This document shows, one piece after another, positions 19,490-64,000 of a DNA stretch of 64,000 bases; the first letter of the stretch is position 1, and each line of letters begins with the position of its first letter. The DNA comes from Callipepla californica brunnescens (Eukaryota > Chordata > Aves > Galliformes > Odontophoridae). The notes beneath the pieces were generated by a model. It had not been told where the DNA came from. It was given only the letters and a program-made list of their open reading frames with translations, and did no database searches. The stretch is from NCBI GenBank assembly GCA_023055505.1, contig JALIRH010000045.1, forward strand, positions 4,300,180 to 4,364,179. The letters run 5' to 3'. A program made the translations under genes and the position numbers.

Positions 19490-20225
19490 GCACGCAGGTG
19501 TGCAACAGGAGTATGGACACGCAGTGGGAACACGGGTGTGCACAGACTGTGTAGGTGTGCAAACGGTGCACGGGCACGGAAAGGGAGCACGAGCATACAA
19601 AAGCACAGATGTGCAAAAGGAACATGCATCCTCTGGGACGAGCAAACCCTGACATATGCAAAGCCATTATCATGCATGCACCATGCATCCTTGCACACAA
19701 ATGTCCCTATAAACAGCATAGACATTAACAGAGATACGTATGTGTTACCATATGTGACACACCTGTGTGATTGTCTCTGGACAACCATACTCGTGTTGCT
19801 GTGCATACCTGCCTCTGCATGTTCACACATCCACACTTAGGCATGCAACCATGTGCATATCGTTGTACAAGACACGCCTGTGTGTAGTCACACACTTGTG
19901 AACAATGTTAATAGCTGTGTGCATTCAAAAGCACATCTAGTATGACCCTAAAATGTACGCGTGTGCATAATCCCCGTTAGCCACAAGCCCACAAACTTGG
20001 TCATGTTCACACGTGTGCATACCCATGGCCCCACCAGTGCGTGCTCACATGAATGTAAACTCATGTGCACATGCTGACACATGCCCCCCTTTTTACCCTC
20101 AAACTCTTGTGCATGCACACACACCGTGCATGCTCACATGCATGCATGCTCACATGCGTGCAGACACACACGCTCACACCACGTGCACGATGCTTGCACA
20201 CACACTCTACCCGCGTGTGCTCACC
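19490..20225. repeat. CA/TG-rich alternating purine-pyrimidine tract upstream of MPP2
   Basis: Imperfect GTGTGCA/ACACATGC repeats over about 730 bases, of the same type as the tract in the L27 intron. Open frames here are low-complexity artefacts. Confidence 0.75.
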
Positions 20226-20239
20226 CGTGGAAGCCCCCC

Positions 20240-20460
20240 CGCCTGCTGGCACGCACGTTTCCGCCGGTTCGGTTTGGGGAGGATGGCATGTGTCCCCTTT
20301 AAGGGAGCAAGTGCCGTTGCCATAACAGCCGGGGGGACGGCCGCGAGCTCCTCACCGGTGGAGGTGGCACAGATTTAAAGGGGCCGCAGAGCGTCCAGCT
20401 TCCCCTTCACGCCACCAAGGGCCGCTCACGTGGGCGTCATAACCTTATCACTTGTTATCA
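20240..20460 (-). promoter_or_regulatory. Candidate MPP2 promoter and non-coding first exon
   Basis: A short GC- and CpG-rich island between CA-rich repeats and AT-richer sequence, upstream of MPP2. On the minus strand it contains a donor-like ACCG|GTGAGG with last exonic base 20356, which could splice to the CTGCAG acceptor two bases before the ATG. It also holds an RFX X-box-like GTTGCCATAACAGC (20316-20329), a TTTAAA motif and a CACGTG E-box. A 5' exon is inferred, not shown. Confidence 0.35.
20316..20329 (+). promoter_or_regulatory. RFX X-box-like motif
   Basis: GTTGCCATAACAGC is close to the imperfect inverted repeat bound by RFX factors (GTTGCC, two-base spacer, then an inverted half site). 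Confidence 0.35.
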
Positions 20461-20887
20461 CATAATGAATTATGTTCCGTGTTTCTTTGCTCTGATCTCT
20501 TATTACAGCTCAGTGGTGTTTTGATGCCCTTAGTGCATTCTTTGTGCCATGCCCACACCTCGCACATGGTGTTCGCTTGTGTGTTATTCTTGTGTTTGTT
20601 CCTGGCGTTCTCTGCAGTGTTTTTCTTGAATTCTCCCCCAGTTTCACCATGGATTTTTCTGTGATGTTCTCCAAACCATTTGCCTGGATATTCTTGTGCA
20701 CTTTTATTGCCTTCTGTATTGTCGTTCGCATGCCATGCCTGTTCGCATTGCCTTTGCACGCCCTGCCTGATCTCTTTGACTTAGCTTTGTTTTTTCTCGG
20801 GAATTTGCTTTGCTTTTGGATCACTGGGAAAAACAGGGAGGCAGCATTGATGTCAATCTTCACCTGACTCAGAAGTATAACGGGAGA
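20461..20887. other. Non-repetitive T-rich spacer before the tandem array
   Basis: AT-richer sequence with short T and A clusters separated by GC-containing bases (for example TTTTTTCTCGGGAATTTGC near 20790). No gene is supported. Open frames on both strands are low-complexity and lack splice or similarity support. It separates the MPP2 promoter region from the array. Confidence 0.55.
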
Positions 20888-21347
20888 ACCCGATTGGCGC
20901 AGGCTATGCACGTGACCGCCAATTGCCCGCCCCAGAAGTGCGCATGCGCAATACTGCGGCAATGCTCACTGCTGCCGCCTGTTGAAGAGAATTCGGTACT
21001 GCAGGCAGTGCCCAGACCCGGAAAAGAGCACAGCGCATGCGCGCAGAAACGCGGAAGTGGCGAACGTACATTCTGACCGCTCTGCACAGCGAGTCCGCCG
21101 AGCTCTATCATGCTTAGTCCTCCAAGCGATACTGCGCATGCGCATACAAACGTATAGAAAACTCCCGTTACTGCGGCTCTCCCAGGTGCCGGCGAGCAGC
21201 CCAGTTTTGGACCGCCAGCTCAACAACATATCCGATCGTCCGGTTTAGGATTCTGCTACTTTTATTGCCCGGTTTTGGGTTCGATCGCGATTGCGATCCG
21301 GGAATCGGACACTTTCATTCCCAGCGGCCCCAGCGCACATCGTCGGC
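20888..21347 (+). repeat. First, diverged unit of the 459-bp array
   Basis: Homology to the array starts at ACCCGATTGG. This copy has many substitutions (for example GCGCAATACTGCGGCAATG in place of the usual GCGCAGTACCGCTGCAGTG), one extra base before the E-box and GAAGAGAATTC, and it lacks the upstream GTCGGC context. Divergence fades along the unit, and the 3' half is near consensus. Confidence 0.9.
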
Positions 21348-21352
21348 ACCCG

Positions 21353-21357
21353 ATTGG
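21353..21357 (-). promoter_or_regulatory. Inverted CCAAT box (representative unit)
   Basis: ATTGG in CCGATTGGCTC, an NF-Y-type site, 10 bases before the E-box. Present in every unit inspected. Confidence 0.6.
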
Positions 21358-21367
21358 CTCAGCGTTG

Positions 21368-21373
21368 CACGTG
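21368..21373 (+). promoter_or_regulatory. E-box CACGTGAC (representative unit)
   Basis: GCACGTGACC matches the USF/MiT-family palindrome CACGTG with the GAC flank typical of promoters. Confidence 0.6.
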
Positions 21374-21383
21374 ACCGCCAGGA

Positions 21384-21392
21384 GCCCGCCCC
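21384..21392 (+). promoter_or_regulatory. GC box (representative unit)
   Basis: GCCCGCCCC, an SP/KLF-type site between the E-box and the first NRF1-type palindrome. Confidence 0.5.
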
Positions 21393-21398
21393 AGAAGC

Positions 21399-21408
21399 GC
21401 GCATGCGC
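21399..21408 (+). promoter_or_regulatory. NRF1-type palindrome 1 (representative unit)
   Basis: GCGCATGCGC, core of the NRF1 consensus. Confidence 0.6.
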
Positions 21409-21491
21409 AGTACCGCTGCAGTGCTCACTGCTGCCGCCTGTTGAGGAGAATTCGGTACTGCAGGCAGTGCCCAGACCCGGAAAAGAGCACA

Positions 21492-21501
21492 GCGCATGCG
21501 C
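21492..21501 (+). promoter_or_regulatory. NRF1-type palindrome 2 (representative unit)
   Basis: GCGCATGCGC within CAGCGCATGCGCGCAG, 93 bases after palindrome 1. Confidence 0.6.
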
Positions 21502-21510
21502 GCAGAAACG

Positions 21511-21518
21511 CGGAAGTG
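21511..21518 (+). promoter_or_regulatory. ETS motif (representative unit)
   Basis: CGGAAGTG, a GABP/ETS-type core 10 bases after palindrome 2. Confidence 0.55.
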
Positions 21519-21591
21519 GCGAACGTACATTCTGACCGCTCTGCACAGCGAGTCCGCCGAGCTCTATCATGCTTAGTCCTCCAAGCGATAC

Positions 21592-21603
21592 TGCGCATGC
21601 GCA
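21592..21603 (+). promoter_or_regulatory. NRF1 palindrome 3, perfect consensus (representative unit)
   Basis: TGCGCATGCGCA is the full symmetric NRF1 consensus. It is followed by ATACAAACG, or ATATAAACG in 12 of the units. Confidence 0.65.
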
Positions 21604-24600
21604 TACAAACGTATAGAAAACTCCCGTTACTGCGGCTCTCCCAGGTGCCGGCGAGCAGCCCAGTTTTGGACCGCCAGCTCAACAACATATCCGATCGTCC
21701 GGTTTAGGATTCTGCTACTTTTATTGCCCGGTTTTGGGTTCGATCGCGATTGCGATCCGGGAACCGGACACTTTCATTCCCAGCGGCCCCAGCGCGCATC
21801 GTCGGCACCCGATTGGCTCAGCGTTGCACGTGACCGCCAGGAGCCCGCCCCAGAAGCGCGCATGCGCAGTACCGCTGCAGTGCTCACTGCTGCCGCCTGT
21901 TGAGGAGAATTCGGTACTGCAGGCAGTGCCCAGACCCGGAAAAGAGCACAGCGCATGCGCGCAGAAACGCGGAAGTGGCGAACGTACATTCTGACCGCTC
22001 TGCACAGCGAGTCCGCCGAGCTCTATCATGCTTAGTCCTCCAAGCGATACTGCGCATGCGCATACAAACGTATAGAAAACTCCCGTTACTGCGGCTCTCC
22101 CAGGTGCCGGCGAGCAGCCCAGTTTTGGACCGCCAGCTCAACAACATATCCGATCGTCCGGTTTAGGATTCTGCTACTTTTATTGCCCGGTTTTGGGTTC
22201 GATCGCGATTGCGATCCGGGAATCGGACACTTTCATTCCCAGCGGCCCCAGCGCACATCGTCGGCACCCGATTGGCTCAGCGTTGCACGTGACCGCCAGG
22301 AGCCCGCCCCAGAAGCGCGCATGCGCAGTACCGCTGCAGTGCTCGCTGCTGCCGCCTGTTGAGGAGAATTCGGTACTGCAGGCAGTGCCCAGACCCGGAA
22401 AAGAGCACAGCGCATGCGCGCAGAAACGCGGAAGTGGCGAACGTACATTCTGACCGCTCTGCACAGCGAGTCCGCCGAGCTCTATCATGCTTAGTCCTCC
22501 AAGCGATACTGCGCATGCGCATACAAACGTATAGAAAACTCCCGTTACTGCGGCTCTCCCAGGTGCCGGCGAGCAGCCCAGTTTTGGACCGCCAGCTCAA
22601 CAACATATCCGATCGTCCGGTTTAGGATTCTGCTACTTTTATTGCCCGGTTTTGGGTTCGATCGCGATTGCGATCCGGGAATCGGACACTTTCATTCCCA
22701 GCGGCCCCAGCGCACATCGTCGGCACCCGATTGGCTCAGCGTTGCACGTGACCGCCAGGAGCCCGCCCCAGAAGCGCGCATGCGCAGTACCGCTGCAGTG
22801 CTCACTGCTGCCGCCTGTTGAGGAGAATTCGGTACTGCAGGCAGTGCCCAGACCCGGAAAAGAGCACAGCGCATGCGCGCAGAAACGCGGAAGTGGCGAA
22901 CGTACATTCTGACCGCTCTGCACAGCGAGTCCGCCGAGCTCTATCATGCTTAGTCCTCCAAGCGATACTGCGCATGCGCATACAAACGTATAGAAAACTC
23001 CCGTTACTGCGGCTCTCCCAGGTGCCGGCGAGCAGCCCAGTTTTGGACCGCCAGCTCAACAACATATCCGATCGTCCGGTTTAGGATTCTGCTACTTTTA
23101 TTGCCCGGTTTTGGGTTCGATCGCGATTGCGATCGGGGAATCGGACACTTTCATTCCCAGCGGCCCCAGCGCACATCGTCGGCACCCGATTGGCTCAGCG
23201 TTGCACGTGACCGCCAGGAGCCCGCCCCAGAAGCGCGCATGCGCAGTACCGCTGCAGTGCTCACTGCTGCCGCCTGTTGAGGAGAATTCGGTACTGCAGG
23301 CAGTGCCCAGACCCGGAAAAGAGCACAGCGCATGCGCGCAGAAACGCGGAAGTGGCGAACGTACATTCTGACCGCTCTGCACAGCGAGTCCGCCGAGCTC
23401 TATCATGCTTAGTCCTCCAAGCGATACTGCGCATGCGCATACAAACGTATAGAAAACTCCCGTTACTGCGGCTCTCCCAGGTGCCGGCGAGCAGCCCAGT
23501 TTTGGACCGCCAGCTCAACAACATATCCGATCGTCCGGTTTAGGATTCTGCTACTTTTATTGCCCGGTTTTGGGTTCGATCGCGATTGCGATCCGGGAAT
23601 CGGACACTTTCATTCCCAGCGGCCCCAGCGCACATCGTCGGCACCCGATTGGCTCAGCGTTGCACGTGACCGCCAGGAGCCCGCCCCAGAAGCGCGCATG
23701 CGCAGTACCGCTGCAGTGCTCGCTGCTGCCGCCTGTTGAGGAGAATTCGGTACTGCAGGCAGTGCCCAGACCCGGAAAAGAGCACAGCGCATGCGCGCAG
23801 AAACGCGGAAGTGGCGAACGTACATTCTGACCGCTCTGCACAGCGAGTCCGCCGAGCTCTATCATGCTTAGTCCTCCAAGCGATACTGCGCATGCGCATA
23901 CAAACGTATAGAAAACTCCCGTTACTGCGGCTCTCCCAGGTGCCGGCGAGCAGCCCAGTTTTGGACCGCCAGCTCAACAACATATCCGATCGTCCGGTTT
24001 AGGATTCTGCTACTTTTATTGCCCGGTTTTGGGTTCGATCGCGATTGCGATCCGGGAATCGGACACTTTCATTCCCAGCGGCCCCAGCGCACATCGTCGG
24101 CACCCGATTGGCTCAGCGTTGCACGTGACCGCCAGGAGCCCGCCCCAGAAGCGCGCATGCGCAGTACCGCTGCAGTGCTCGCTGCTGCCGCCTGTTGAGG
24201 AGAATTCGGTACTGCAGGCAGTGCCCAGACCCGGAAAAGAGCACAGCGCATGCGCGCAGAAACGCGGAAGTGGCGAACGTACATTCTGACCGCTCTGCAC
24301 AGCGAGTCCGCCGAGCTCTATCATGCTTAGTCCTCCAAGCGATACTGCGCATGCGCATACAAACGTATAGAAAACTCCCGTTACTGCGGCTCTCCCAGGT
24401 GCCGGCGAGCAGCCCAGTTTTGGACCGCCAGCTCAACAACATATCCGATCGTCCGGTTTAGGATTCTGCTACTTTTATTGCCCGGTTTTGGGTTCGATCG
24501 CGATTGCGATCCGGGAATCGGACACTTTCATTCCCAGCGGCCCCAGCGCACATCGTCGGCACCCGATTGGCTCAGCGTTGCACGTGACCGCCAGGAGCCC

Positions 24601-27600
24601 GCCCCAGAAGCGCGCATGCGCAGTACCGCTGCAGTGCTCGCTGCTGCCGCCTGTTGAGGAGAATTCGGTACTGCAGGCAGTGCCCAGACCCGGAAAAGAG
24701 CACAGCGCATGCGCGCAGAAACGCGGAAGTGGCGAACGTACATTCTGACCGCTCTGCACAGCGAGTCCGCCGAGCTCTATCATGCTTAGTCCTCCAAGCG
24801 ATACTGCGCATGCGCATACAAACGTATAGAAAACTCCCGTTACTGCGGCTCTCCCAGGTGCCGGCGAGCATCCCAGTTTTGGACCGCCAGCTCAACAACA
24901 TATCCGATCGTCCGGTTTAGGATTCTGCTACTTTTATTGCCCGGTTTTGGGTTCGATCGCGATTGCGATCCGGGAATCGGACACTTTCATTCCCAGCAGC
25001 CCCAGCGCACATCGTCGGCACCCGATTGGCTCAGCGTTGCACGTGACCGCCAGGAGCCCGCCCCAGAAGCGCGCATGCGCAGTACCGCTGCAGTGCTCAC
25101 TGCTGCCGCCTGTTGAGGAGAATTCGGTACTGCAGGCAGTGCCCAGACCCGGAAAAGAGCACAGCGCATGCGCGCAGAAACGCGGAAGTGGCGAACGTAC
25201 ATTCTGACCGCTCTGCACAGCGAGTCCGCCGAGCTCTATCATGCTTAGTCCTCCAAGCGATACTGCGCATGCGCATATAAACGTATAGAAAACTCCCGTT
25301 ACTGCGGCTCTCCCAGGTGCCGGCGAGCAGCCCAGTTTTGGACCGCCAGCTCAACAACATATCCGATCGTCCGGTTTAGGATTCTGCTACTTTTATTGCC
25401 CGGTTTTGGGTTCGATCGCGATTGCGATCCGGGAATCGGACACTTTCATTCCCAGCGGCCCCAGCGCACATCGTCGGCACCCGATTGGCTCAGCGTTGCA
25501 CGTGACCGCCAGGAGCCCGCCCCAGAAGCGCGCATGCGCAGTACCGCTGCAGTGCTCGCTGCTGCCGCCTGTTGAGGAGAATTCGGTACTGCAGGCAGTG
25601 CCCAGACCCGGAAAAGAGCACAGCGCATGCGCGCAGAAACGCGGAAGTGGCGAACGTACATTCTGACCGCTCTGCACAGCGAGTCCGCCGAGCTCTATCA
25701 TGCTTAGTCCTTCAAGCGATACTGCGCATGCGCATACAAACGTATAGAAAACTCCCGTTACTGCGGCTCTCCCAGGTGCCGGCGAGCAGCCCAGTTTTGG
25801 ACCGCCAGCTCAACAACATATCCGATCGTCCGGTTTAGGATTCTGCTACTTTTATTGCCCGGTTTTGGGTTCGATCGCGATTGCGATCCGGGAATCGGAC
25901 ACTTTCATTCCCAGCGGCCCCAGCGCACATCGTCGGCACCCGATTGGCTCAGCGTTGCACGTGACCGCCAGGAGCCCGCCCCAGAAGCGCGCATGCGCAG
26001 TACCGCTGCAGTGCTCGCTGCTGCCGCCTGTTGAGGAGAATTCGGTATTGCAGGCAGTGCCCAGACCCGGAAAAGAGCACAGCGCATGCGCGCAGAAACG
26101 CGGAAGTGGCGAACGTACATTCTGACCGCTCTGCACAGCAAGTCCGCCGAGCTCTATCATGCTTAGTCCTCCAAGCGATACTGCGCATGCGCATACAAAC
26201 GTATAGAAAACTCCCGTTACTGCGGCTCTCCCAGGTGCCGGCGAGCAGCCCAGTTTTGGACCGCCAGCTCAACAACATATCCGATCGTCCGGTTTAGGAT
26301 TCTGCTACTTTTATTGCCCGGTTTTGGGTTCGATCGCGATTGCGATCCGGGAATCGGACACTTTCATTCCCAGCGGCCCCAGCGCACATCGTCGGCACCC
26401 GATTGGCTCAGCGTTGCACGTGACCGCCAGGAGCCCGCCCCAGAAGCGCGCATGCGCAGTACCGCTGCAGTGCTCGCTGCTGCCGCCTGTTGAGGAGAAT
26501 TCGGTACTGCAGGCAGTGCCCAGACCCGGAAAAGAGCAGAGCGCATGCGCGCAGAAACGCGGAAGTGGCGAACGTACATTCTGACCGCTCTGCACAGCGA
26601 GTCCGCCGAGCTCTATCATGCTTAGTCCTCCAAGCGATACTGCGCATGCGCATACAAACGTATAGAAAACTCCCGTTACTGCGGCTCTCCCAGGTGCCGG
26701 CGAGCAGCCCAGTTTTGGACCGCCAGCTCAACAACATATCCGATCGTCCGGTTTAGGATTCTGCTACTTTTATTGCCCGGTTTTGGGTTCGATCGCGATT
26801 GCGATCCGGGAATCGGACACTTTCATTCCCAGCGGCCCCAGCGCACATCGTCGGCACCCGATTGGCTCAGCGTTGCACGTGACCGCCAGGAGCCCGCCCC
26901 AGAAGCGTGCATGCGCAGTACCGCTGCAGTGCTCGCTGCTGCCGCCTGTTGAGGAGAATTCGGTACTGCAGGCAGTGCCCAGACCCGGAAAAGAGCACAG
27001 CGCATGCGCGCAGAAACGCGGAAGTGGCGAACGTACATTCTGACCGCTCTGCACAGCGAGTCCGCCGAGCTCTATCATGCTTAGTCCTTCAAGCGATACT
27101 GCGCATGCGCATACAAACGTATAGAAAACTCCCGTTACTGCGGCTCTCCCAGGTGCCGGCGAGCAGCCCAGTTTTGGACCGCCAGCTCAACAACATATCC
27201 GATCGTCCGGTTTAGGATTCTGCTACTTTTATTGCCCGGTTTTGGGTTCGATCGCGATTGCGATCCGGGAATCGGACACTTTCATTCCCAGCGGCCCCAG
27301 CGCACATCGTCGGCACCCGATTGGCTCAGCGTTGCACGTGACCGCCAGGAGCCCGCCCCAGAAGCGCGCATGCGCAGTACCGCTGCAGTGCTCGCTGCTG
27401 CCGCCTGTTGAGGAGAATTCGGTACTGCAGGCAGTGCCCAGACCCGGAAAAGAGCACAGCGCATGCGCGCAGAAACGCGGAAGTGGCGAACGTACATTCT
27501 GACCGCTCTGCACAGCGAGTCCGCCGAGCTCTATCATGCTTAGTCCTCCAAGCGATACTGCGCATGCGCATACAAACGTATAGAAAACTCCCGTTACTGC

Positions 27601-30441
27601 GGCTCTCCCAGGTGCCGGCGAGCAGCCCAGTTTTGGACCGCCAGCTCAACAACATATCCGATCGTCCGGTTTAGGATTCTGCTACTTTTATTGCCCGGTT
27701 TTGGGTTCGATCGCGATTGCGATCCGGGAATCGGACACTTTCATTCCCAGCGGCCCCAGCGCACATCGTCGGCACCCGATTGGCTCAGCGTTGCACGTGA
27801 CCGCCAGGAGCCCGCCCCAGAAGCGCGCATGCGCAGTACCGCTGCAGTGCTCGCTGCTGCCGCCTGTTGAGGAGAATTCGGTACTGCAGGCAGTGCCCAG
27901 ACCCGGAAAAGAGCACAGCGCATGCGCGCAGAAACGCGGAAGTGGCGAACGTACATTCTGACCGCTCTGCACAGCGAGTCCGCCGAGCTCTATCATGCTT
28001 AGTCCTCCAAGCGATACTGCGCATGCGCATACAAACGTATAGAAAACTCCCGTTACTGCGGCTCTCCCAGGTGCCGGCGAGCAGCCCAGTTTTGGACCGC
28101 CAGCTCAACAACATATCCGATCGTCCGGTTTAGGATTCTGCTACTTTTATTGCCCGGTTTTGGGTTCGATCGCGATTGCGATCCGGGAATCGGACACTTT
28201 CATTCCCAGCGGCCCCAGCGCACATCGTCGGCACCCGATTGGCTCAGCGTTGCACGTGACCGCCAGGAGCCCGCCCCAGAAGCGCGCATGCGCAGTACCG
28301 CTGCAGTGCTCGCTGCTGCCGCCTGTTGAGGAGAATTCGGTACTGCAGGCAGTGCCCAGACCCGGAAAAGAGCACAGCGCATGCGCGCAGAAACGCGGAA
28401 GTGGCGAACGTACATTCTGACCGCTCTGCACAGCGAGTCCGCCGAGCTCTATCATGCTTAGTCCTCCAAGCGATACTGCGCATGCGCATACAAACGTATA
28501 GAAAACTCCCGTTACTGCGGCTCTCCCAGGTGCCGGCGAGCAGCCCAGTTTTGGACCGCCAGCTCAACAACATATCCGATCGTCCGGTTTAGGATTCTGC
28601 TACTTTTATTGCCCGGTTTTGGGTTCGATCGCGATTGCGATCCGGGAATCGGACACTTTCATTCCCAGCGGCCCCAGCGCACATCGTCGGCACCCGATTG
28701 GCTCAGCGTTGCACGTGACCGCCAGGAGCCCGCCCCAGAAGCGCGCATGCGCAGTACCGCTGCAGTGCTCGCTGCTGCCGCCTGTTGAGGAGAATTCGGT
28801 ACTGCAGGCAGTGCCCAGACCCGGAAAAGAGCACAGCGCATGCGCGCAGAAACGCGGAAGTGGCGAACGTACATTCTGACCGCTCTGCACAGCGAGTCCG
28901 CCGAGCTCTATCATGCTTAGTCCTCCAAGCGATACTGCGCATGCGCATACAAACGTATAGAAAACTCCCGTTACTGCGGCTCTCCCAGGTGCCGGCGAGC
29001 AGCCCAGTTTTGGACCGCCAGCTCAACAACATATCCGATCGTCCGGTTTAGGATTCTGCTACTTTTATTGCCCGGTTTTGGGTTCGATCGCGATTGCGAT
29101 CCGGGAATCGGACACTTTCATTCCCAGCGGCCCCAGCGCACATCGTCGGCACCCGATTGGCTCAGCGTTGCACGTGACCGCCAGGAGCCCGCCCCAGAAG
29201 CGCGCATGCGCAGTACCGCTGCAGTGCTCGCTGCTGCCGCCTGTTGAGGAGAATTCGGTACTGCAGGCAGTGCCCAGACCCGGAAAAGAGCACAGCGCAT
29301 GCGCGCAGAAACGCGGAAGTGGCGAACGTACATTCTGACCGCTCTGCACAGCGAGTCCGCCGAGCTCTATCATGCTTAGTCCTCCAAGCGATACTGCGCA
29401 TGCGCATACAAACGTATAGAAAACTCCCGTTACTGCGGCTCTCCCAGGTGCCGGCGAGCAGCCCAGTTTTGGACCGCCAGCTCAACAACATATCCGATCG
29501 TCCGGTTTAGGATTCTGCTACTTTTATTGCCCGGTTTTGGGTTCGATCGCGATTGCGATCCGGGAATCGGACACTTTCATTCCCAGCGGCCCCAGCGCAC
29601 ATCGTCGGCACCCGATTGGCTCAGCGTTGCACGTGACCGCCAGGAGCCCGCCCCAGAAGCGCGCATGCGCAGTACCGCTGCAGTGCTCACTGCTGCCGCC
29701 TGTTGAGGAGAATTCGGTACTGCAGGCAGTGCCCAGACCAGGAAAAGAGCACAGCGCATGCGCGCAGAAACGCGGAAGTGGCGAACGTACATTCTGACCG
29801 CTCTGCACAGCGAGTCCGCCGAGCTCTATCATGCTTAGTCCTCCAAGCGATACTGCGCATGCGCATACAAACGTATAGAAAACTCCCGTTACTGCGGCTC
29901 TCCCAGGTGCCGGCGAGCAGCCCAGTTTTGGACCGCCAGCTCAACAACATATCCGATCGTCCGGTTTAGGATTCTGCTACTTTTATTGCCCGGTTTTGGG
30001 TTCGATCGCGATTGCGATCCGGGAATCGGACACTTTCATTCCCAGCGGCCCCAGCGCACATCGTCGGCACCCGATTGGCTCAGCGTTGCACGTGACCGCC
30101 AGGAGCCCGCCCCAGAAGCGCGCATGCGCAGTACCGCTGCAGTGCTCGCTGCTGCCGCCTGTTGAGGAGAATTCGGTACTGCAGGCAGTGCCCAGACCCG
30201 GAAAAGAGCACAGCGCATGCGCGCAGAAACGCGGAAGTGGCGAACGTACATTCTGACCGCTCTGCACAGCGAGTCCGCCGAGCTCTATCATGCTTAGTCC
30301 TCCAAGCGATACTGCGCATGCGCATACAAACGTATAGAAAACTCCCGTTACTGCGGCTCTCCCAGGTGCCGGCGAGCAGCCCAGTTTTGGACCGCCAGCT
30401 CAACAACATATCCGATCGTCCGGTTTAGGATTCTGCTACTT

Positions 30442-33400
30442 TTATTGCCCGGTTTTGGGTTCGATCGCGATTGCGATCCGGGAATCGGACACTTTCATTC
30501 CCAGCGGCCCCAGCGCACATCGTCGGCACCCGATTGGCTCAGCGTTGCACGTGACCGCCAGGAGCCCGCCCCAGAAGCGCGCATGCGCAGTACCGCTGCA
30601 GTGCTCGCTGCTGCCGCCTGTTGAGGAGAATTCGGTACTGCAGGCAGTGCCCAGACCCGGAAAAGAGCACAGCGCATGCGCGCAGAAACGCGGAAGTGGC
30701 GAACGTACATTCTGACCGCTCTGCACAGCGAGTCCGCCGAGCTCTATCATGCTTAGTCCTCCAAGCGATACTGCGCATGCGCATACAAACGTATAGAAAA
30801 CTCCCGTTACTGCGGCTCTCCCAGGTGCCGGCGAGCAGCCCAGTTTTGGACCGCCAGCTCAACAACATATCCGATCGTCCGGTTTAGGATTCTGCTACTT
30901 TTATTGCCCGGTTTTGGGTTCGATCGCGATTGCGATCCGGGAATCGGACACTTTCATTCCCAGCGGCCCCAGCGCACATCGTCGGCACCCGATTGGCTCA
31001 GCGTTGCACGTGACCGCCAGGAGCCCGCCCCAGAAGCGCGCATGCGCAGTACCGCTGCAGTGCTCGCTGCTGCCGCCTGTTGAGGAGAATTCGGTACTGC
31101 AGGCAGTGCCCAGACCCGGAAAAGAGCACAGCGCATGCGCGCAGAAACGCGGAAGTGGCGAACGTACATTCTGACCGCTCTGCACAGCGAGTCCGCCGAG
31201 CTTTATCATGCTTAGTCCTCCAAGCGATACTGCGCATGCGCATACAAACGTATAGAAAACTCCCGTTACTGCGGCTCTCCCAGGTGCCGGCGAGCAGCCC
31301 AGTTTTGGACCGCCAGCTCAACAACATATCCGATCGTCCGGTTTAGGATTCTGCTACTTTTATTGCCCGGTTTTGGGTTCGATCGCGATTGCGATCCGGG
31401 AATCGGACACTTTCATTCCCAGCGGCCCCAGCGCACATCGTCGGCACCCGATTGGCTCAGCGTTGCACGTGACCGCCAGGAGCCCGCCCCAGAAGCGCGC
31501 ATGCGCAGTACCGCTGCAGTGCTCGCTGCTGCCGCCTGTTGAGGAGAATTCGGTACTGCAGGCAGTGCCCAGACCCGGAAAAGAGCACAGCGCATGCGCG
31601 CAGAAACGCGGAAGTGGCGAACGTACATTCTGACCGCTCTGCACAGCGAGTCCGCCGAGCTCTATCATGCTTAGTCCTCCAAGCGATACTGCGCATGCGC
31701 ATATAAACGTATAGAAAACTCCCGTTACTGCGGCTCTCCCAGGTGCCGGCGAGCAGCCCAGTTTTGGACCGCCAGCTCAACAACATATCCGATCGTCCGG
31801 TTTAGGATTCTGCTACTTTTATTGCCCGGTTTTGGGTTCGATCGCGATTGCGATCCGGGAATCGGACACTTTCATTCCCAGCGGCCCCAGCGCACATCGT
31901 CGGCACCCGATTGGCTCAGCGTTGCACGTGACCGCCAGGAGCCCGCCCCAGAAGCGCGCATGCGCAGTACCGCTGCAGTGCTCGCTGCTGCCGCCTGTTG
32001 AGGAGAATTCGGTACTGCAGGCAGTGCCCAGACCCGGAAAAGAGCACAGCGCATGCGCGCAGAAACGCGGAAGTGGCGAACGTACATTCTGACCGCTCTG
32101 CACAGCGAGTCCGCCGAGCTCTATCATGCTTAGTCCTTCAAGCGATACTGCGCATGCGCATACAAACGTATAGAAAACTCCCGTTACTGCGGCTCTCCCA
32201 GGTGCCGGCGAGCAGCCCAGTTTTGGACCGCCAGCTCAACAACATATCCGATCGTCCGGTTTAGGATTCTGCTACTTTTATTGCCCGGTTTTGGGTTCGA
32301 TCGCGATTGCGATCCGGGAATCGGACACTTTCATTCCCAGCGGCCCCAGCGCACATCGTCGGCACCCGATTGGCTCAGCGTTGCACGTGACCGCCAGGAG
32401 CCCGCCCCAGAAGCGCGCATGCGCAGTACCGCTGCAGTGCTCGCTGCTGCCGCCTGTTGAGGAGAATTCGGTACTGCAGGCAGTGCCCAGACCCGGAAAA
32501 GAGCACAGCGCATGCGCGCAGAAACGCGGAAGTGGCGAACGTACATTCTGACCGCTCTGCACAGCGAGTCCGCCGAGCTCTATCATGCTTAGTCCTCCAA
32601 GCGATACTGCGCATGCGCATACAAACGTATAGAAAACTCCCGTTACTGCGGCTCTCCCAGGTGCCGGCGAGCAGCCCAGTTTTGGACCGCCAGCTCAACA
32701 ACATATCCGATCGTCTGGTTTAGGATTCTGCTACTTTTATTGCCCGGTTTTGGGTTCGATCGCGATTGCGATCCGGGAATCGGACACTTTCATTCCCAGC
32801 GGCCCCAGCGCACATCGTCGGCACCCGATTGGCTCAGCGTTGCACGTGACCGCCAGGAGCCCGCCCCAGAAGCGCGCATGCGCAGTACCGCTGCAGTGCT
32901 CGCTGCTGCCGCCTGTTGAGGAGAATTCGGTACTGCAGGCAGTGCCCAGACCCGGAAAAGAGCACAGCGCATGCGCGCAGAAACGCGGAAGTGGCGAACG
33001 TACATTCTGACCGCTCTGCACAGCGAGTCCGCCGAGCTTTATCATGCTTAGTCCTTCAAGCGATACTGCGCATGCGCATACAAACGTATAGAAAACTCCC
33101 GTTACTGCGGCTCTCCCAGGTGCCGGCGAGCAGCCCAGTTTTGGACCGCCAGCTCAACAACATATCCGATCGTCCGGTTTAGGATTCTGCTACTTTTATT
33201 GCCCGGTTTTGGGTTCGATCGCGATTGCGATCCGGGAATCGGACACTTTCATTCCCAGCGGCCCCAGCGCACATCGTCGGCACCCGATTGGCTCAGCGTT
33301 GCACGTGACCGCCAGGAGCCCGCCCCAGAAGCGCGCATGCGCAGTACCGCTGCAGTGCTCGCTGCTGCCGCCTGTTGAGGAGAATACGGTACTGCAGGCA

Positions 33401-53392: not shown

Positions 53393-56300
53393 TTATTGCC
53401 CGGTTTTGGGTTCGATCGCGATTGCGATCCGGGAATCGGACACTTTCATTCCCAGCGGCCCCAGCGCACATCGTCGGCACCCGATTGGCTCAGCGTTGCA
53501 CGTGACCGCCAGGAGCCCGCCCCAGAAGCGCGCATGCGCAGTACCGCTGCAGTGCTCACTGCTGCCGCCTGTTGAGGAGAATTCGGTACTGCAGGCAGTG
53601 CCCAGACCCGGAAAAGAGCACAGCGCATGCGCGCAGAAACGCGGAAGTGGCGAACGTACATTCTGACCGCTCTGCACAGCGAGTCCGCCGAGCTTTATCA
53701 TGCTTAGTCCTCCAAGCGATACTGCGCATGCGCATACAAACGTATAGAAAACTCCCGTTACTGCGGCTCTCCCAGGTGCCGGCGAGCAGCCCAGTTTTGG
53801 ACCGCCAGCTCAACAACATATCCGATCGTCCGGTTTAGGATTCTGCTACTTTTATTGCCCGGTTTTGGGTTCGATCGCGATTGCGATCCGGGAATCGGAC
53901 ACTTTCATTCCCAGCGGCCCCAGCGCACATCGTCGGCACCCGATTGGCTCAGCGTTGCACGTGACCGCCAGGAGCCCGCCCCAGAAGCGCGCATGCGCAG
54001 TACCGCTGCAGTGCTCGCTGCTGCCGCCTGTTGAGGAGAATTCGGTACTGCAGGCAGTGCCCAGACCCGGAAAAGAGCACAGCGCATGCGCGCAGAAACG
54101 CGGAAGTGGCGAACGTACATTCTGACCGCTCTGCACAGCGAGTCCGCCGAGCTCTATCATGCTTAGTCCTCCAAGCGATACTGCGCATGCGCATACAAAC
54201 GTATAGAAAACTCCCGTTACTGCGGCTCTCCCAGGTGCCGGCGAGCAGCCCAGTTTTGGACCGCCAGCTCAACAACATATCCGATCGTCCGGTTTAGGAT
54301 TCTGCTACTTTTATTGCCCGGTTTTGGGTTCGATCGCGATTGCGATCCGGGAATCGGACACTTTCATTCCCAGCGGCCCCAGCGCACATCGTCGGCACCC
54401 GATTGGCTCAGCGTTGCACGTGACCGCCAGGAGCCCGCCCCAGAAGCGCGCATGCGCAGTACCGCTGCAGTGCTCGCTGCTGCCGCCTGTTGAGGAGAAT
54501 TCGGTACTGCAGGCAGTGCCCAGACCCGGAAAAGAGCACAGCGCATGCGCGCAGAAACGCGGAAGTGGCGAACGTACATTCTGACCGCTCTGCACAGCGA
54601 GTCCGCCGAGCTCTATCATGCTTAGTCCTCCAAGCGATACTGCGCATGCGCATACAAACGTATAGAAAACTCCCGTTACTGCGGCTCTCCCAGGTGCCGG
54701 CGAGCAGCCCAGTTTTGGACCGCCAGCTCAACAACATATCCGATCGTCCGGTTTAGGATTCTGCTACTTTTATTGCCCGGTTTTGGGTTCGATCGCGATT
54801 GCGATCCGGGAATCGGACACTTTCATTCCCAGCGGCCCCAGCGCACATCGTCGGCACCCGATTGGCTCAGCGTTGCACGTGACCGCCAGGAGCCCGCCCC
54901 AGAAGCGCGCATGCGCAGTACCGCTGCAGTGCTCGCTGCTGCCGCCTGTTGAGGAGAATTCGGTACTGCAGGCAGTGCCCAGACCCGGAAAAGAGCACAG
55001 CGCATGCGCGCAGAAACGCGGAAGTGGCGAACGTACATTCTGACCGCTCTGCACAGCGAGTCCGCCGAGCTCTATCATGCTTAGTCCTCCAAGCGATACT
55101 GCGCATGCGCATACAAACGTATAGAAAACTCCCGTTACTGCGGCTCTCCCAGGTGCCGGCGAGCAGCCCAGTTTTGGACCGCCAGCTCAACAACATATCC
55201 GATCGTCCGGTTTAGGATTCTGCTACTTTTATTGCCCGGTTTTGGGTTCGATCGCGATTGCGATCCGGGAATCGGACACTTTCATTCCCAGCGGCCCCAG
55301 CGCACATCGTCGGCACCCGATTGGCTCAGCGTTGCACGTGACCGCCAGGAGCCCGCCCCAGAAGCGCGCATGCGCAGTACCGCTGCAGTGCTCGCTGCTG
55401 CCGCCTGTTGAGGAGAATTCGGTACTGCAGGCAGTGCCCAGACCCGGAAAAGAGCACAGCGCATGCGCGCAGAAACGCGGAAGTGGCGAACGTACATTCT
55501 GACCGCTCTGCACAGCGAGTCCGCCGAGCTCTATCATGCTTAGTCCTCCAAGCGATACTGCGCATGCGCATACAAACGTATAGAAAACTCCCGTTACTGC
55601 GGCTCTCCCAGGTGCCGGCGAGCAGCCCAGTTTTGGACCGCCAGCTCAACAACATATCCGATCGTCCGGTTTAGGATTCTGCTACTTTTATTGCCCGGTT
55701 TTGGGTTCGATCGCGATTGCGATCCGGGAATCGGACACTTTCATTCCCAGCGGCCCCAGCGCACATCGTCGGCACCCGATTGGCTCAGCGTTGCACGTGA
55801 CCGCCAGGAGCCCGCCCCAGAAGCGCGCATGCGCAGTACCGCTGCAGTGCTCGCTGCTGCCGCCTGTTGAGGAGAATTCGGTACTGCAGGCAGTGCCCAG
55901 ACCCGGAAAAGAGCACAGCGCATGCGCGCAGAAACGCGGAAGTGGCGAACGTACATTCTGACCGCTCTGCACAGCGAGTCCGCCGAGCTCTATCATGCTT
56001 AGTCCTTCAAGCGATACTGCGCATGCGCATACAAACGTATAGAAAACTCCCGTTACTGCGGCTCTCCCAGGTGCCGGCGAGCAGCCCAGTTTTGGACCGC
56101 CAGCTCAACAACATATCCGATCGTCCGGTTTAGGATTCTGCTACTTTTATTGCCCGGTTTTGGGTTCGATCGCGATTGCGATCCGGGAATCGGACACTTT
56201 CATTCCCAGCGGCCCCAGCGCACATCGTCGGCACCCGATTGGCTCAGCGTTGCACGTGACCGCCAGGAGCCCGCCCCAGAAGCGCGCATGCGCAGTACCG

Positions 56301-59300
56301 CTGCAGTGCTCGCTGCTGCCGCCTGTTGAGGAGAATTCGGTACTGCAGGCAGTGCCCAGACCAGGAAAAGAGCACAGCGCATGCGCGCAGAAACGCGGAA
56401 GTGGCGAACGTACATTCTGACCGCTCTGCACAGCGAGTCCGCCGAGCTCTATCATGCTTAGTCCTCCAAGCGATACTGCGCATGCGCATACAAACGTATA
56501 GAAAACTCCCGTTACTGCGGCTCTCCCAGGTGCCGGCGAGCAGCCCAGTTTTGGACCGCCAGCTCAACAACATATCCGATCGTCCGGTTTAGGATTCTGC
56601 TACTTTTATTGCCCGGTTTTGGGTTCGATCGCGATTGCGATCCGGGAATCGGACACTTTCATTCCCAGCGGCCCCAGCGCACATCGTCGGCACCCGATTG
56701 GCTCAGCGTTGCACGTGACCGCCAGGAGCCCGCCCCAGAAGCGCGCATGCGCAGTACCGCTGCAGTGCTCGCTGCTGCCGCCTGTTGAGGAGAATTCGGT
56801 ACTGCAGGCAGTGCCCAGACCCGGAAAAGAGCACAGCGCATGCGCGCAGAAACGCGGAAGTGGCGAACGTACATTCTGACCGCTCTGCACAGCGAGTCCG
56901 CCGAGCTCTATCATGCTTAGTCCTCCAAGCGATACTGCGCATGCGCATACAAACGTATAGAAAACTCCCGTTACTGCGGCTCTCCCAGGTGCCGGCGAGC
57001 AGCCCAGTTTTGGACCGCCAGCTCAACAACATATCCGATCGTCCGGTTTAGGATTCTGCTACTTTTATTGCCCGGTTTTGGGTTCGATCGCGATTGCGAT
57101 CCGGGAATCGGACACTTTCATTCCCAGCGGCCCCAGCGCACATCGTCGGCACCCGATTGGCTCAGCGTTGCACGTGACCGCCAGGAGCCCGCCCCAGAAG
57201 CGCGCATGCGCAGTACCGCTGCAGTGCTCGCTGCTGCCGCCTGTTGAGGAGAATTCGGTACTGCAGGCAGTGCCCAGACCCGGAAAAGAGCACAGCGCAT
57301 GCGCGCAGAAACGCGGAAGTGGCGAACGTACATTCTGACCGCTCTGCACAGCGAGTCCGCCGAGCTCTATCATGCTTAGTCCTCCAAGCGATACTGCGCA
57401 TGCGCATACAAACGTATAGAAAACTCCCGTTACTGCGGCTCTCCCAGGTGCCGGCGAGCAGCCCAGTTTTGGACCGCCAGCTCAACAACATATCCGATCG
57501 TCCGGTTTAGGATTCTGCTACTTTTATTGCCCGGTTTTGGGTTCGATCGCGATTGCGATCCGGGAATCGGACACTTTCATTCCCAGCGGCCCCAGCGCAC
57601 ATCGTCGGCACCCGATTGGCTCAGCGTTGCACGTGACCGCCAGGAGCCCGCCCCAGAAGCGCGCATGCGCAGTACCGCTGCAGTGCTCGCTGCTGCCGCC
57701 TGTTGAGGAGAATTCGGTACTGCAGGCAGTGCCCAGACCCGGAAAAGAGCACAGCGCATGCGCGCAGAAACGCGGAAGTGGCGAACGTACATTCTGACCG
57801 CTCTGCACAGCGAGTCCGCCGAGCTTTATCATGCTTAGTCCTTCAAGCGATACTGCGCATGCGCATACAAACGTATAGAAAACTCCCGTTACTGCGGCTC
57901 TCCCAGGTGCCGGCGAGCAGCCCAGTTTTGGACCGCCAGCTCAACAACATATCCGATCGTCCGGTTTAGGATTCTGCTACTTTTATTGCCCGGTTTTGGG
58001 TTCGATCGCGATTGCGATCCGGGAATCGGACACTTTCATTCCCAGCGGCCCCAGCGCACATCGTCGGCACCCGATTGGCTCAGCGTTGCACGTGACCGCC
58101 AGGAGCCCGCCCCAGAAGCGCGCATGCGCAGTACCGCTGCAGTGCTCGCTGCTGCCGCCTGTTGAGGAGAATACGGTACTGCAGGCAGTGCCCAGACCCG
58201 GAAAAGAGCACAGCGCATGCGCGCAGAAACGCGGAAGTGGCGAACGTACATTCTGACCGCTCTGCACAGCGAGTCCGCCGAGCTCTATCATGCTTAGTCC
58301 TCCAAGCGATACTGCGCATGCGCATACAAACGTATAGAAAACTCCCGTTACTGCGGCTCTCCCAGGTGCCGGCGAGCATCCCAGTTTTGGACCGCCAGCT
58401 CAACAACATATCCGATCGTCCGGTTTAGGATTCTGCTACTTTTATTGCCCGGTTTTGGGTTCGATCGCGATTGCGATCCGGGAATCGGACACTTTCATTC
58501 CCAGCAGCCCCAGCGCAAATCGTCGGCACCCGATTGGCTCAGCGTTGCACGTGACCGCCAGGAGCCCGCCCCAGAAGCGCGCATGCGCAGTACCGCTGCA
58601 GTGCTCACTGCTGCCGCCTGTTGAGGAGAATTCGGTACTGCAGGCAGTGCCCAGACCCGGAAAAGAGCACAGCGCATGCGCGCAGAAACGCGGAAGTGGC
58701 GAACGTACATTCTGACCGCTCTGCACAGCGAGTCCGCCGAGCTCTATCATGCTTAGTCCTCCAAGCGATACTGCGTATGCGCATATAAACGTATAGAAAA
58801 CTCCCGTTACTGCGGCTCTCCCAGGTGCCGGCGAGCAGCCCAGTTTTGGACCGCCAGCTCAACAACATATCCGATCGTCCGGTTTAGGATTCTGCTACTT
58901 TTATTGCCCGGTTTTGGGTTCGATCGCGATTGCGATCCGGGAATCGGACACTTTCATTCCCAGCGGCCCCAGCGCACATCGTCGGCACCCGATTGGCTCA
59001 GCGTTGCACGTGACCGCCAGGAGCCCGCCCCAGAAGCGCGCATGCGCAGTACCGCTGCAGTGCTCGCTGCTGCCGCCTGTTGAGGAGAATTCGGTACTGC
59101 AGGCAGTGCCCAGACCCGGAAAAGAGCACAGCGCATGCGCGCAGAAACGCGGAAGTGGCGAACGTACATTCTGACCGCTCTGCACAGCGAGTCCGCCGAG
59201 CTCTATCATGCTTAGTCCTTCAAGCGATACTGCGCATGCGCATACAAACGTATAGAAAACTCCCGTTACTGCGGCTCTCCCAGGTGCCGGCGAGCAGCCC

Positions 59301-62300
59301 AGTTTTGGACCGCCAGCTCAACAACATATCCGATCGTCCGGTTTAGGATTCTGCTACTTTTATTGCCCGGTTTTGGGTTCGATCGCGATTGCGATCCGGG
59401 AATCGGACACTTTCATTCCCAGCGGCCCCAGCGCACATCGTCGGCACCCGATTGGCTCAGCGTTGCACGTGACCGCCAGGAGCCCGCCCCAGAAGCGCGC
59501 ATGCGCAGTACCGCTGCAGTGCTCGCTGCTGCCGCCTGTTGAGGAGAATTCGGTATTGCAGGCAGTGCCCAGACCCGGAAAAGAGCACAGCGCATGCGCG
59601 CAGAAACGCGGAAGTGGCGAACGTACATTCTGACCGCTCTGCACAGCAAGTCCGCCGAGCTCTATCATGCTTAGTCCTCCAAGCGATACTGCGCATGCGC
59701 ATACAAACGTATAGAAAACTCCCGTTACTGCGGCTCTCCCAGGTGCCGGCGAGCATCCCAGTTTTGGACCGCCAGCTCAACAACATATCCGATCGTCCGG
59801 TTTAGGATTCTGCTACTTTTATTGCCCGGTTTTGGGTTCGATCGCGATTGCGATCCGGGAATCGGACACTTTCATTCCCAGCGGCCCCAGCGCACATCGT
59901 CGGCACCCGATTGGCTCAGCGTTGCACGTGACCGCCAGGAGCCCGCCCCAGAAGCGCGCATGCGCAGTACCGCTGCAGTGCTCGCTGCTGCCGCCTGTTG
60001 AGGAGAATTCGGTACTGCAGGCAGTGCCCAGACCCGGAAAAGAGCACAGCGCATGCGCGCAGAAACGCGGAAGTGGCGAACGTACATTCTGACCGCTCTG
60101 CACAGCGAGTCCGCCGAGCTCTATCATGCTTAGTCCTCCAAGCGATACTGCGCATGCGCATACAAACGTATAGAAAACTCCCGTTACTGCGGCTCTCCCA
60201 GGTGCCGGCGAGCATCCCAGTTTTGGACCGCCAGCTCAACAACATATCCGATCGTCCGGTTTAGGATTCTGCTACTTTTATTGCCCGGTTTTGGGTTCGA
60301 TCGCGATTGCGATCCGGGAATCGGACACTTTCATTCCCAGCGGCCCCAGCGCACATCGTCGGCACCCGATTGGCTCAGCGTTGCACGTGACCGCCAGGAG
60401 CCCGCCCCAGAAGCGCGCATGCGCAGTACCGCTGCAGTGCTCACTGCTGCCGCCTGTTGAGGAGAATTCGGTACTGCAGGCAGTGCCCAGACCCGGAAAA
60501 GAGCACAGCGCATGCGCGCAGAAACGCGGAAGTGGCGAACGTACATTCTGACCGCTCTGCACAGCGAGTCCGCCGAGCTCTATCATGCTTAGTCCTCCAA
60601 GCGATACTGCGCATGCGCATACAAACGTATAGAAAACTCCCGTTACTGCGGCTCTCCCAGGTGCCGGCGAGCAGCCCAGTTTTGGACCGCCAGCTCAACA
60701 ACATATCCGATCGTCCGGTTTAGGATTCTGCTACTTTTATTGCCCGGTTTTGGGTTCGATCGCGATTGCGATCCGGGAATCGGACACTTTCATTCCCAGC
60801 GGCCCCAGCGCACATCGTCGGCACCCGATTGGCTCAGCGTTGCACGTGACCGCCAGGAGCCCGCCCCAGAAGCGCGCATGCGCAGTACCGCTGCAGTGCT
60901 CGCTGCTGCCGCCTGTTGAGGAGAATTCGGTACTGCAGGCAGTGCCCAGACCCGGAAAAGAGCACAGCGCATGCGCGCAGAAACGCGGAAGTGGCGAACG
61001 TACATTCTGACCGCTCTGCACAGCGAGTCCGCCGAGCTCTATCATGCTTAGTCCTCCAAGCGATACTGCGCATGCGCATACAAACGTATAGAAAACTCCC
61101 GTTACTGCGGCTCTCCCAGGTGCCGGCGAGCAGCCCAGTTTTGGACCGCCAGCTCAACAACATATCCGATCGTCCGGTTTAGGATTCTGCTACTTTTATT
61201 GCCCGGTTTTGGGTTCGATCGCGATTGCGATCCGGGAATCGGACACTTTCATTCCCAGCGGCCCCAGCGCACATCGTCGGCACCCGATTGGCTCAGCGTT
61301 GCACGTGACCGCCAGGAGCCCGCCCCAGAAGCGCGCATGCGCAGTACCGCTGCAGTGCTCGCTGCTGCCGCCTGTTGAGGAGAATTCGGTACTGCAGGCA
61401 GTGCCCAGACCCGGAAAAGAGCACAGCGCATGCGCGCAGAAACGCGGAAGTGGCGAACGTACATTCTGACCGCTCTGCACAGCGAGTCCGCCGAGCTCTA
61501 TCATGCTTAGTCCTCCAAGCGATACTGCGCATGCGCATACAAACGTATAGAAAACTCCCGTTACTGCGGCTCTCCCAGGTGCCGGCGAGCAGCCCAGTTT
61601 TGGACCGCCAGCTCAACAACATATCCGATCGTCCGGTTTAGGATTCTGCTACTTTTATTGCCCGGTTTTGGGTTCGATCGCGATTGCGATCCGGGAATCG
61701 GACACTTTCATTCCCAGCGGCCCCAGCGCACATCGTCGGCACCCGATTGGCTCAGCGTTGCACGTGACCGCCAGGAGCCCGCCCCAGAAGCGCGCATGCG
61801 CAGTACCGCTGCAGTGCTCGCTGCTGCCGCCTGTTGAGGAGAATTCGGTACTGCAGGCAGTGCCCAGACCCGGAAAAGAGCACAGCGCATGCGCGCAGAA
61901 ACGCGGAAGTGGCGAACGTACATTCTGACCGCTCTGCACAGCGAGTCCGCCGAGCTCTATCATGCTTAGTCCTTCAAGCGATACTGCGCATGCGCATACA
62001 AACGTATAGAAAACTCCCGTTACTGCGGCTCTCCCAGGTGCCGGCGAGCAGCCCAGTTTTGGACCGCCAGCTCAACAACATATCCGATCGTCCGGTTTAG
62101 GATTCTGCTACTTTTATTGCCCGGTTTTGGGTTCGATCGCGATTGCGATCCGGGAATCGGACACTTTCATTCCCAGCGGCCCCAGCGCACATTGTCGGCA
62201 CCCGATTGGCTCAGCGTTGCACGTGACCGCCAGGAGCCCGCCCCAGAAGCGCGCATGCGCAGTACTGCTGCAGTGCTCGCTGCTGCCGCCTGTTGAGGAG

Positions 62301-64000
62301 AATTCGGTACTGCAGGCAGTGCCCAGACCCGGAAAAGAGCACAGCGCATGCGCGCAGAAACGCGGAAGTGGCGAACGTACATTCTGACCGCTCTGCACAG
62401 CGAGTCCGCCGAGCTCTATCATGCTTAGTCCTCCAAGCGATACTGCGCATGCGCATACAAACGTATAGAAAACTCCCGTTACTGCGGCTCTCCCAGGTGC
62501 CGGCGAGCAGCCCAGTTTTGGACCGCCAGCTCAACAACATATCCGATCGTCCGGTTTAGGATTCTGCTACTTTTATTGCCCGGTTTTGGGTTCGATCGCG
62601 ATTGCGATCCGGGAATCGGACACTTTCATTCCCAGCGGCCCCAGCGCACATCGTCGGCACCCGATTGGCTCAGCGTTGCACGTGACCGCCAGGAGCCCGC
62701 CCCAGAAGCGCGCATGCGCAGTACCGCTGCAGTGCTCACTGCTGCCGCCTGTTGAGGAGAATTCGGTACTGCAGGCAGTGCCCAGACCCGGAAAAGAGCA
62801 CAGCGCATGCGCGCAGAAACGCGGAAGTGGCGAACGTACATTCTGACCGCTCTGCACAGCGAGTCCGCCGAGCTCTATCATGCTTAGTCCTCCAAGCGAT
62901 ACTGCGCATGCGCATACAAACGTATAGAAAACTCCCGTTACTGCGGCTCTCCCAGGTGCCGGCGAGCAGCCCAGTTTTGGACCGCCAGCTCAACAACATA
63001 TCCGATCGTCCGGTTTAGGATTCTGCTACTTTTATTGCCCGGTTTTGGGTTCGATCGCGATTGCGATCCGGGAATCGGACATTTTCATTCCCAGCGGCCC
63101 CAGCGCACATCGTCGGCACCCGATTGGCTCAGCGTTGCACGTGACCGCCAGGAGCCCGCCCCAGAAGCGCGCATGCGCAGTACCGCTGCAGTGCTCACTG
63201 CTGCCGCCTGTTGAGGAGAATTCGGTACTGCAGGCAGTGCCCAGACCCGGAAAAGAGCACAGCGCATGCGCGCAGAAACGCGGAAGTGGCGAACGTACAT
63301 TCTGACCGCTCTGCACAGCGAGTCCGCCGAGCTCTATCATGCTTAGTCCTCCAAGCGATACTGCGCATGCGCATACAAACGTATAGAAAACTCCCGTTAC
63401 TGCGGCTCTCCCAGGTGCCGGCGAGCAGCCCAGTTTTGGACCGCCAGCTCAACAACATATCCGATCGTCCGGTTTAGGATTCTGCTACTTTTATTGCCCG
63501 GTTTTGGGTTCGATCGCGATTGCGATCCGGGAATCGGACACTTTCATTCCCAGCGGCCCCAGCGCACATCGTCGGCACCCGATTGGCTCAGCGTTGCACG
63601 TGACCGCCAGGAGCCCGCCCCAGAAGCGCGCATGCGCAGTACCGCTGCAGTGCTCACTGCTGCCGCCTGTTGAGGAGAATTCGGTACTGCAGGCAGTGCC
63701 CAGACCCGGAAAAGAGCACAGCGCATGCGCGCAGAAACGCGGAAGTGGCGAACGTACATTCTGACCGCTCTGCACAGCGAGTCCGCCGAGCTTTATCATG
63801 CTTAGTCCTTCAAGCGATACTGCGCATGCGCATACAAACGTATAGAAAACTCCCGTTACTGCGGCTCTCCCAGGTGCCAGCAATCAGCCCAGTTTTGGAC
63901 CGCCAGCTCAACAACATATCCGATCGTCCGGTTTAGGATTCTGCTACTTTTATTGCCCGGTTTTGGGTTCGATCGCGATTGCGATCCGGGAACCGGACAT
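53393..64000 (+). repeat. Array segment 4: rearranged third version of the higher-order pattern
   Basis: Runs of the same markers occur but with changed spacing. AGAATACGG (58173) and its neighbours lie 29 units after their block B copies, while the CACATTGTC/GTACTGCTG unit (62114) lies 24 units after its block B copy. The segment therefore shares ancestry but has gained and lost units. The last units are diverged. Confidence 0.75.

Follow-up and report, generated by a model that had tools for sequence, protein, structure and literature searches.

A telomere-facing satellite of promoter-like units at chromosome ends of Callipepla californica brunnescens

We describe a 459-bp tandem repeat that forms a 56-kb subtelomeric array in Callipepla californica brunnescens and, elsewhere in the assembly (1.085 Gb in 321 contigs), recurs at contig ends with an outward orientation. 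The window, the whole stretch of 64,000 bp analyzed here, covers positions 4,300,180-4,364,179 of contig C45; positions above 64,000 are given as window-extended coordinates. We propose that the repeat unit is a telomere-facing promoter of the CpG-island type, which would drive outward transcription resembling that of telomeric repeat-containing RNA (TERRA), and we put the probability of this reading at about 0.5. It draws on the location and shared orientation of the units, and on the conservation of predicted binding-site cores between loci.

The array and its motifs

Tandem Repeats Finder (TRF) reports a single array in the window (20888-63999, period 459, 93.9 copies, 99% matches), and splitting at an anchor yields 94 units, spaced 91 times by 459 bp and twice by 460 bp. 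Both counts bear out the first-pass annotation, which had described a 459-bp unit in about 94 copies. Its extent for the array stands within the window, and its right edge at 64000 is the window edge only: the array ends at 76,773, with 121 near-full copies, all 121 on the plus strand. The window copies are strongly homogenized, with a mean divergence from the consensus of 1.34 bases per copy (91 copies of 459 bp) and 37 distinct unit sequences among the 94. A stretch of 7,220 bp is duplicated exactly, 25 units away within the array, as unequal exchange would leave. At the telomere-distal edge, the first copy carries 13 substitutions and one indel relative to the consensus, confined to its first ~97 bases, and its motif cores are intact (0/60 sites changed). 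At the opposite edge, copies from 73,217 on are decayed (78-91% to consensus) and the final copy is cut at unit position 347.

Beyond the array lie ~33-bp GC-rich repeats (76.8-81.2 kb), followed by 24-bp, 37-bp, ~80-bp, 435-bp and 28-bp repeats; the main periods found are 459 and about 33, 24, 37-38, 80, 435, 29 and 28. The 28-bp repeat occupies 90,337-92,002, and TTAGGG then fills the rest of the contig, 92,003-106,065 (~14 kb). Because array, GC-rich repeats and TTAGGG succeed one another up to the contig end, the array is subtelomeric, placed between unique sequence and the terminal TTAGGG, a setting that was beyond the reach of the first pass on the window. Centromere identity was rejected, as a CENP-B box consensus found no match and TTAGGG is adjacent. 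The 33-bp minisatellite was likewise set aside as a protein repeat; its long open frames fall on both strands and in several frames, and are explicable by 33-bp composition.

Each unit holds 47 CpG, with an observed/expected CpG ratio (o/e) of 1.16; the array cores of C45 and of a second contig, C55, give 1.16-1.18, and the flank gives 0.19 (1-12,000) and 0.28 (12,001-20,887). Stops in all six frames of the consensus exclude a protein-coding unit. A motif scan of the consensus recovers the motif content listed in the first pass, namely an inverted CCAAT box, a USF-type E-box (CACGTGAC), a GC box (CCGCCCC), an ETS motif (CGGAAGT) and three NRF1-type palindromes (GCGCATGCGC). Consensus strings and factor names are general ones rather than entries of a motif library, and they denote sequence motifs only. 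Three palindromes together arose in 0/2000 dinucleotide shuffles, and at least one in 20/2000. The remaining motifs are individually weak (1000 shuffles: E-box P 0.013, ETS 0.042, extended CCAAT 0.059, GC box 0.12). The palindrome occurs 336 times in the C45 array and 108 times in the main C55 array, and is absent from the four flanking stretches counted. The array and the motifs of its second copy are as follows.

20888-64000, onward to window-extended 76,773, plus strand: 459-bp promoter-like satellite array (TRF; extension and copy count)
20889-21348, plus strand: first (telomere-distal) copy, divergent over its first ~97 bases (consensus comparison)
21351-21358, minus strand: CCAAT box (CGATTGGC on the plus strand), copy 2 (motif scan)
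21368-21375, plus strand: USF-type E-box CACGTGAC, copy 2 (motif scan)
21386-21392, plus strand: GC box CCGCCCC, copy 2 (motif scan)
21399-21408, no strand: NRF1-type palindrome a, GCGCATGCGC, copy 2 (motif scan)
21492-21501, no strand: NRF1-type palindrome b, copy 2, invariant across seven loci (motif scan, locus comparison)
21511-21517, plus strand: ETS motif CGGAAGT, copy 2, CGGAAGC in 5/7 loci (motif scan, locus comparison)
21593-21602, no strand: NRF1-type palindrome c, copy 2, invariant across seven loci (motif scan, locus comparison)

Relatives at chromosome ends and their conserved cores

The unit was met at ten loci (C45, C55, C172, C8, C29, C27, C151, C43, C35 and C42). Relatives of the C45 unit, at 79-88% identity, lie at seven further contig ends, all outward-facing, and at two internal or unplaced sites (C8 and C172); counting C45 itself, the unit is oriented toward the contig end at all eight contig-end loci. 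Contig C55 starts with CCCTAA and carries a second array at 34,036-60,389 (57 copies of ~460 bp, 86-88% to the C45 unit) and a small unit cluster at 63,980-66,027. Its near-full copies are all on the minus strand (59/59), again telomere-facing, and its array-to-telomere region is collinear with that of C45 (96.4% over 5.5 kb). C8 holds five full copies and one truncated copy, and its array-to-body junction matches at 89.7% over 1010 bp; C172 holds three copies. C45, C55 (twice), C8 and C35 all have their final unit truncated at one and the same place (about 347), the units of C29, C43 and C151 form one tight group in a tree, and copies per locus range from 3 to about 121 among the countable loci. 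We also observed a GC-rich 33-bp repeat of another kind, in ~106 copies, adjoining the three-copy cluster (C172:256,010-259,495), and a diverged unit-like copy (L034:116-334) ~400 bp upstream of the C8 array, which is perhaps an older form (local alignment score 93 vs a shuffle maximum of 44, n=200).

Sharing between ends extends to the sequence that lies between array and telomere. A 300-bp piece of it (window-extended 83,700-83,999; C45:4383879-4384178; L005:9700-9999) has at least 40 near-full matches on at least 38 contigs, a lower bound, as 40 of 58 candidates were scored. Its identity is 98-100% on at least 27 contigs, and chromosome ends therefore appear to exchange sequence often. Placement covers 35 of the 38 contigs: on 34 the block faces the end and lies <25 kb from it (16 on the minus strand near the start, 18 on the plus strand near the end), and the exception is C8, where it sits ~513 kb inside the contig. 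Fifteen such contig ends were inspected; five finish in TTAGGG/CCCTAA, four in the 28-bp-type repeat that abuts TTAGGG in C45, three elsewhere in the block (judged by eye) and three in N. TTAGGG was not found in 300 bp at the other ends of C45 and C55 or at either end of C8.

Forty blind samples of 350 bp, taken on 28 contigs 14.5-19 kb inward of this distal block, gave six hits to the unit (C29, C27, C151, C43, C35 and C42; 79-85%), all facing the contig end. A further 27 fell in the minisatellite body or the distal block, some by short matches only, and seven in neither. The C27 sample has a CpG o/e of 0.73 and no intact palindrome, and this unit looks old.

Seven motif blocks (60/459 positions) were fixed from the window consensus and compared between loci, which, where they exchange sequence, are not fully independent. 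C45 and C55 differ at 1/60 motif sites and 51/399 other sites (P 0.004). Across three families, 3/60 motif positions and 88/399 others are variable (P 6e-4); 2/458 slid masks are as low, and 20,000 random block sets give P 0.0017. Seven loci sharpen the difference, with 4/60 positions variable in the motif cores vs 138/399 elsewhere (P 1.6e-6), and 0/458 slid masks and 0/10,000 random block sets as low; this test used neither C8 nor C27, and C35 was left out as a decayed copy beside a truncated one. The CCAAT box and palindromes b and c are invariant in the seven loci and the ETS motif reads CGGAAGC in 5/7; palindrome a is altered in C55, the E-box reads CACGTGGC in C42, and C172 and C42 have both lost the GC box. 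Further conserved stretches match no motif known to us, for example unit positions 185-200 (0-based).

Decayed copies at the edge of the C45 array serve as an internal control. Six of them, with a seventh and less decayed right-edge copy left out, show no depletion (25/60 vs 154/399), although taken singly against the window consensus some edge copies show fewer motif changes (e.g. 3/60 vs 75/398). When CpG bases alone are considered across the three families, 1/22 is variable in motifs and 18/72 elsewhere (P 0.04). With motif cores kept between loci while the remainder drifts, the term promoter-like, used of the unit in the first pass, gains real support at the level of sequence.

Neighboring genes and spacer

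On the way to the array, MPP2 is the last unique gene seen, and its 5' end points at the array from ~1.5 kb away. MPP2 had been named as the neighbor, an assignment that Pfam and PDB uphold, and NBR1 was identified in the same way. An NBR1 intron contains what we take to be a CR1-like piece (window 4,240-4,660). No Rfam family reached its gathering score in stretches L004-L007, L027 and L032, and the search for a known RNA gene gave a lone sub-threshold mir-297 match, outside the array. Viral or bacterial contamination was rejected by a weak test, in which unit words had no exact match in viral or genome contigs.

20450-20521, plus strand: subtelomeric spacer piece, also near unit clusters on C55 and C172; the shared block starts about here (BLAST)
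13640-19390, approximate, minus strand: MPP2, with L27, PDZ, SH3 and guanylate kinase exons (Pfam; PDB, MPP2 PDZ)
1-9267, approximate, plus strand: NBR1, 3' part (Pfam; PDB)

An outward promoter and its alternatives

In the model we propose, unmethylated units would be occupied by NRF1, NF-Y, USF and ETS-type factors, which would hold the tract open. RNA polymerase II would start in the units and move outward, crossing the GC-rich minisatellites in the direction of TTAGGG, to produce a TERRA-like subtelomeric RNA that might reach into the telomere itself. If CpG-island promoters attract recombination, units would also swap from one chromosome end to another and now and then expand, in the present case to ~121 copies. 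The motif order CCAAT, E-box, GC box, NRF1, ETS reads telomere-ward, and the array lies upstream of the shared downstream body. In the window array, 9 CpG transitions over 94 CpG bases, vs 8 over 179 other C/G bases, fall below the expectation of a ten-fold excess (P 0.003) and are compatible with a two-fold one, which hints, on few events, at low germline methylation of the array. Among six decayed copies, 57 transitions were counted over 186 cells of shared CpG, and 35 over 277 cells of shared GpC.

Several observations weigh against an outward promoter. NRF1 palindromes are directionless, so that its direction is read from motif order and location. Between the array and the telomere lie 15 kb, the last copy above 99% is 19 kb away from the telomere, and the decayed copies are the telomere-proximal ones. 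GC skew is negative in the minisatellite body (76-82 kb), contrary to outward R-loops. The unit was met on only 6/28 contigs, in samples that were short (350 bp) and blind. CTCF is linked to human TERRA promoters, and a CTCF core consensus found no match on either strand of the two large arrays (C45 and C55). Adding C35 weakens the conservation test (9/60 vs 163/399, P 4.5e-5), and adding C35 and the small C55 cluster gives 10/60 vs 170/399. Of the 29 variant positions among copies of the window array, 3 lie in the 60 motif sites, which is no depletion, as would be the case if these variants arose too recently for filtering. A real and nearer TERRA promoter may instead be the CpG-rich, G-skewed 28-bp repeat. 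This 28/56-bp repeat abuts TTAGGG, and its last kilobase has a CpG o/e of 1.09 and a GC skew of +0.42.

The strongest competing explanation, which we consider clearly less likely than an outward promoter, is a satellite driven by recombination. CpG-island promoters are hotspots of crossover and gene conversion in animals without PRDM9, birds included; such elements could amplify themselves at chromosome ends, their cores surviving since only open units recombine, and transcription would be a by-product. Along the core lineages of C45 and C55, AT-to-GC changes outnumber GC-to-AT by 18 to 3, as GC-biased conversion in cores would give, and in the six edge copies, which share ancestry, GC-to-AT changes outnumber AT-to-GC by 144 to 42. 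The exact 7,220-bp duplication and the tight grouping of the C29, C43 and C151 units fit this explanation as well, and subtelomeric recombination in a frog is tied to satellite expansion (PMC10794172). Recombination alone, however, leaves unexplained both the repeated telomere-facing order of array, body and spacer, and the sparing of specific factor cores over general CpG (1/22 vs 18/72).

It is improbable, in our estimate, that the array arose by tandem amplification of a promoter belonging to a subtelomeric gene or to a family of spliced long non-coding RNAs, with exons in the distal block. At several loci the array gives way to the body near unit position 347, which would suit this idea, as would exon-like pieces with good splice signals (L006:426-548, 681-831, 2146-2268 and 2401-2551), which are duplicated in C45 and C55, with one also in C172. 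These pieces are not convincingly coding, and we rejected them as a gene: Pfam yielded nothing above cut-off for two peptides and PDB nothing for one, many residues of the open frame are not the same in C45 and C172, and no Rfam family was found in the stretches searched. Two other explanations seem to us very improbable, and equally so. The first-pass annotation had proposed an NRF1 sink or distinctive chromatin domain; the palindrome counts (336 and 108, against none in four flanks) are what a sink would offer, but array size differs between loci, so a role in NRF1 dosage would be unstable. A passive satellite, in which an old promoter fragment was amplified by chance and has no present function, would account for decayed edge copies and for window copies lacking motif depletion, since satellites expand neutrally, but not for cores that are conserved between seven loci and not among decayed copies.

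Among known systems, the parallel with human TERRA promoters appears close in logic. Those promoters consist of CpG-rich repeats in the subtelomere that carry predicted NRF1 sites and are switched on by NRF1 once demethylated (PMC6600276), and their repeats occur at 37/46 ends (PMC12242772). The human 61-29-37 repeats resemble the present array as CpG-rich tandem repeats near TTAGGG with predicted NRF1 sites; they occur at many chromosome ends and are transcribed outward in an NRF1-dependent manner (PMC6600276, PMC12242772). They differ from it in that here the unit is 459 bp, the array 56 kb, 15 kb of other repeats precede the telomere, and no CTCF core was matched. In mouse germ cells NRF1 likewise switches on retrotransposons that are free of methylation (PMC12420836). 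A likeness to DXZ4 and D4Z4, which the first pass had drawn, is weak. Both have tandem units of ~3 kb; DXZ4 is GC- and CpG-rich, binds CTCF and has an internal promoter that outlasts other sequence, and D4Z4 is subtelomeric and has an open reading frame (PMC3218863). Macrosatellite units measure 2 to >12 kb and occupy one or two locations (PMC3218863), whereas this unit measures 459 bp, was met at ten loci, has stops in every frame and matches no CTCF core; macrosatellite is a poor label for it.

The chicken telomere-to-telomere paper names CNM, PO41 and sate-21 (PMC9974502), of which the subtelomeric PO41 has, by description, a 41-bp unit, against 459 bp here, and, in the text available, no promoter-type composition mentioned. 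Satellites of chicken microchromosome arms form many different small families, commoner in small chromosomes, and promoter-like or telomere-facing units are not described in the part of that source at hand (PMC4992247). The Silkie chr27 centromere is reported to be without tandem repeats (PMC11745021). Among the papers listed by searches of the open-access literature, none describes this avian repeat, and an unnamed listing elsewhere is possible.

Bird subtelomeres were long missing from assemblies, and where birds start telomere-ward transcription is, to our knowledge, poorly known. The repeat described here supplies a specific candidate promoter, defined by its sequence, that has conserved factor sites and was encountered at several loci at chromosome ends. 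Promoter copy number differs between the loci, from 3 to about 121, which makes them a natural series. A broader possibility, to which we give somewhat less than even odds, is a pan-subtelomeric system of NRF1/NF-Y-type CpG-island promoters that is under selection, traded between ends and drives outward transcription, with promoter number varying by locus, as an independent counterpart of the human NRF1-dependent TERRA promoters. If the candidate promoter is real, control of chromosome-end transcription by NRF1 may have had more than one origin.

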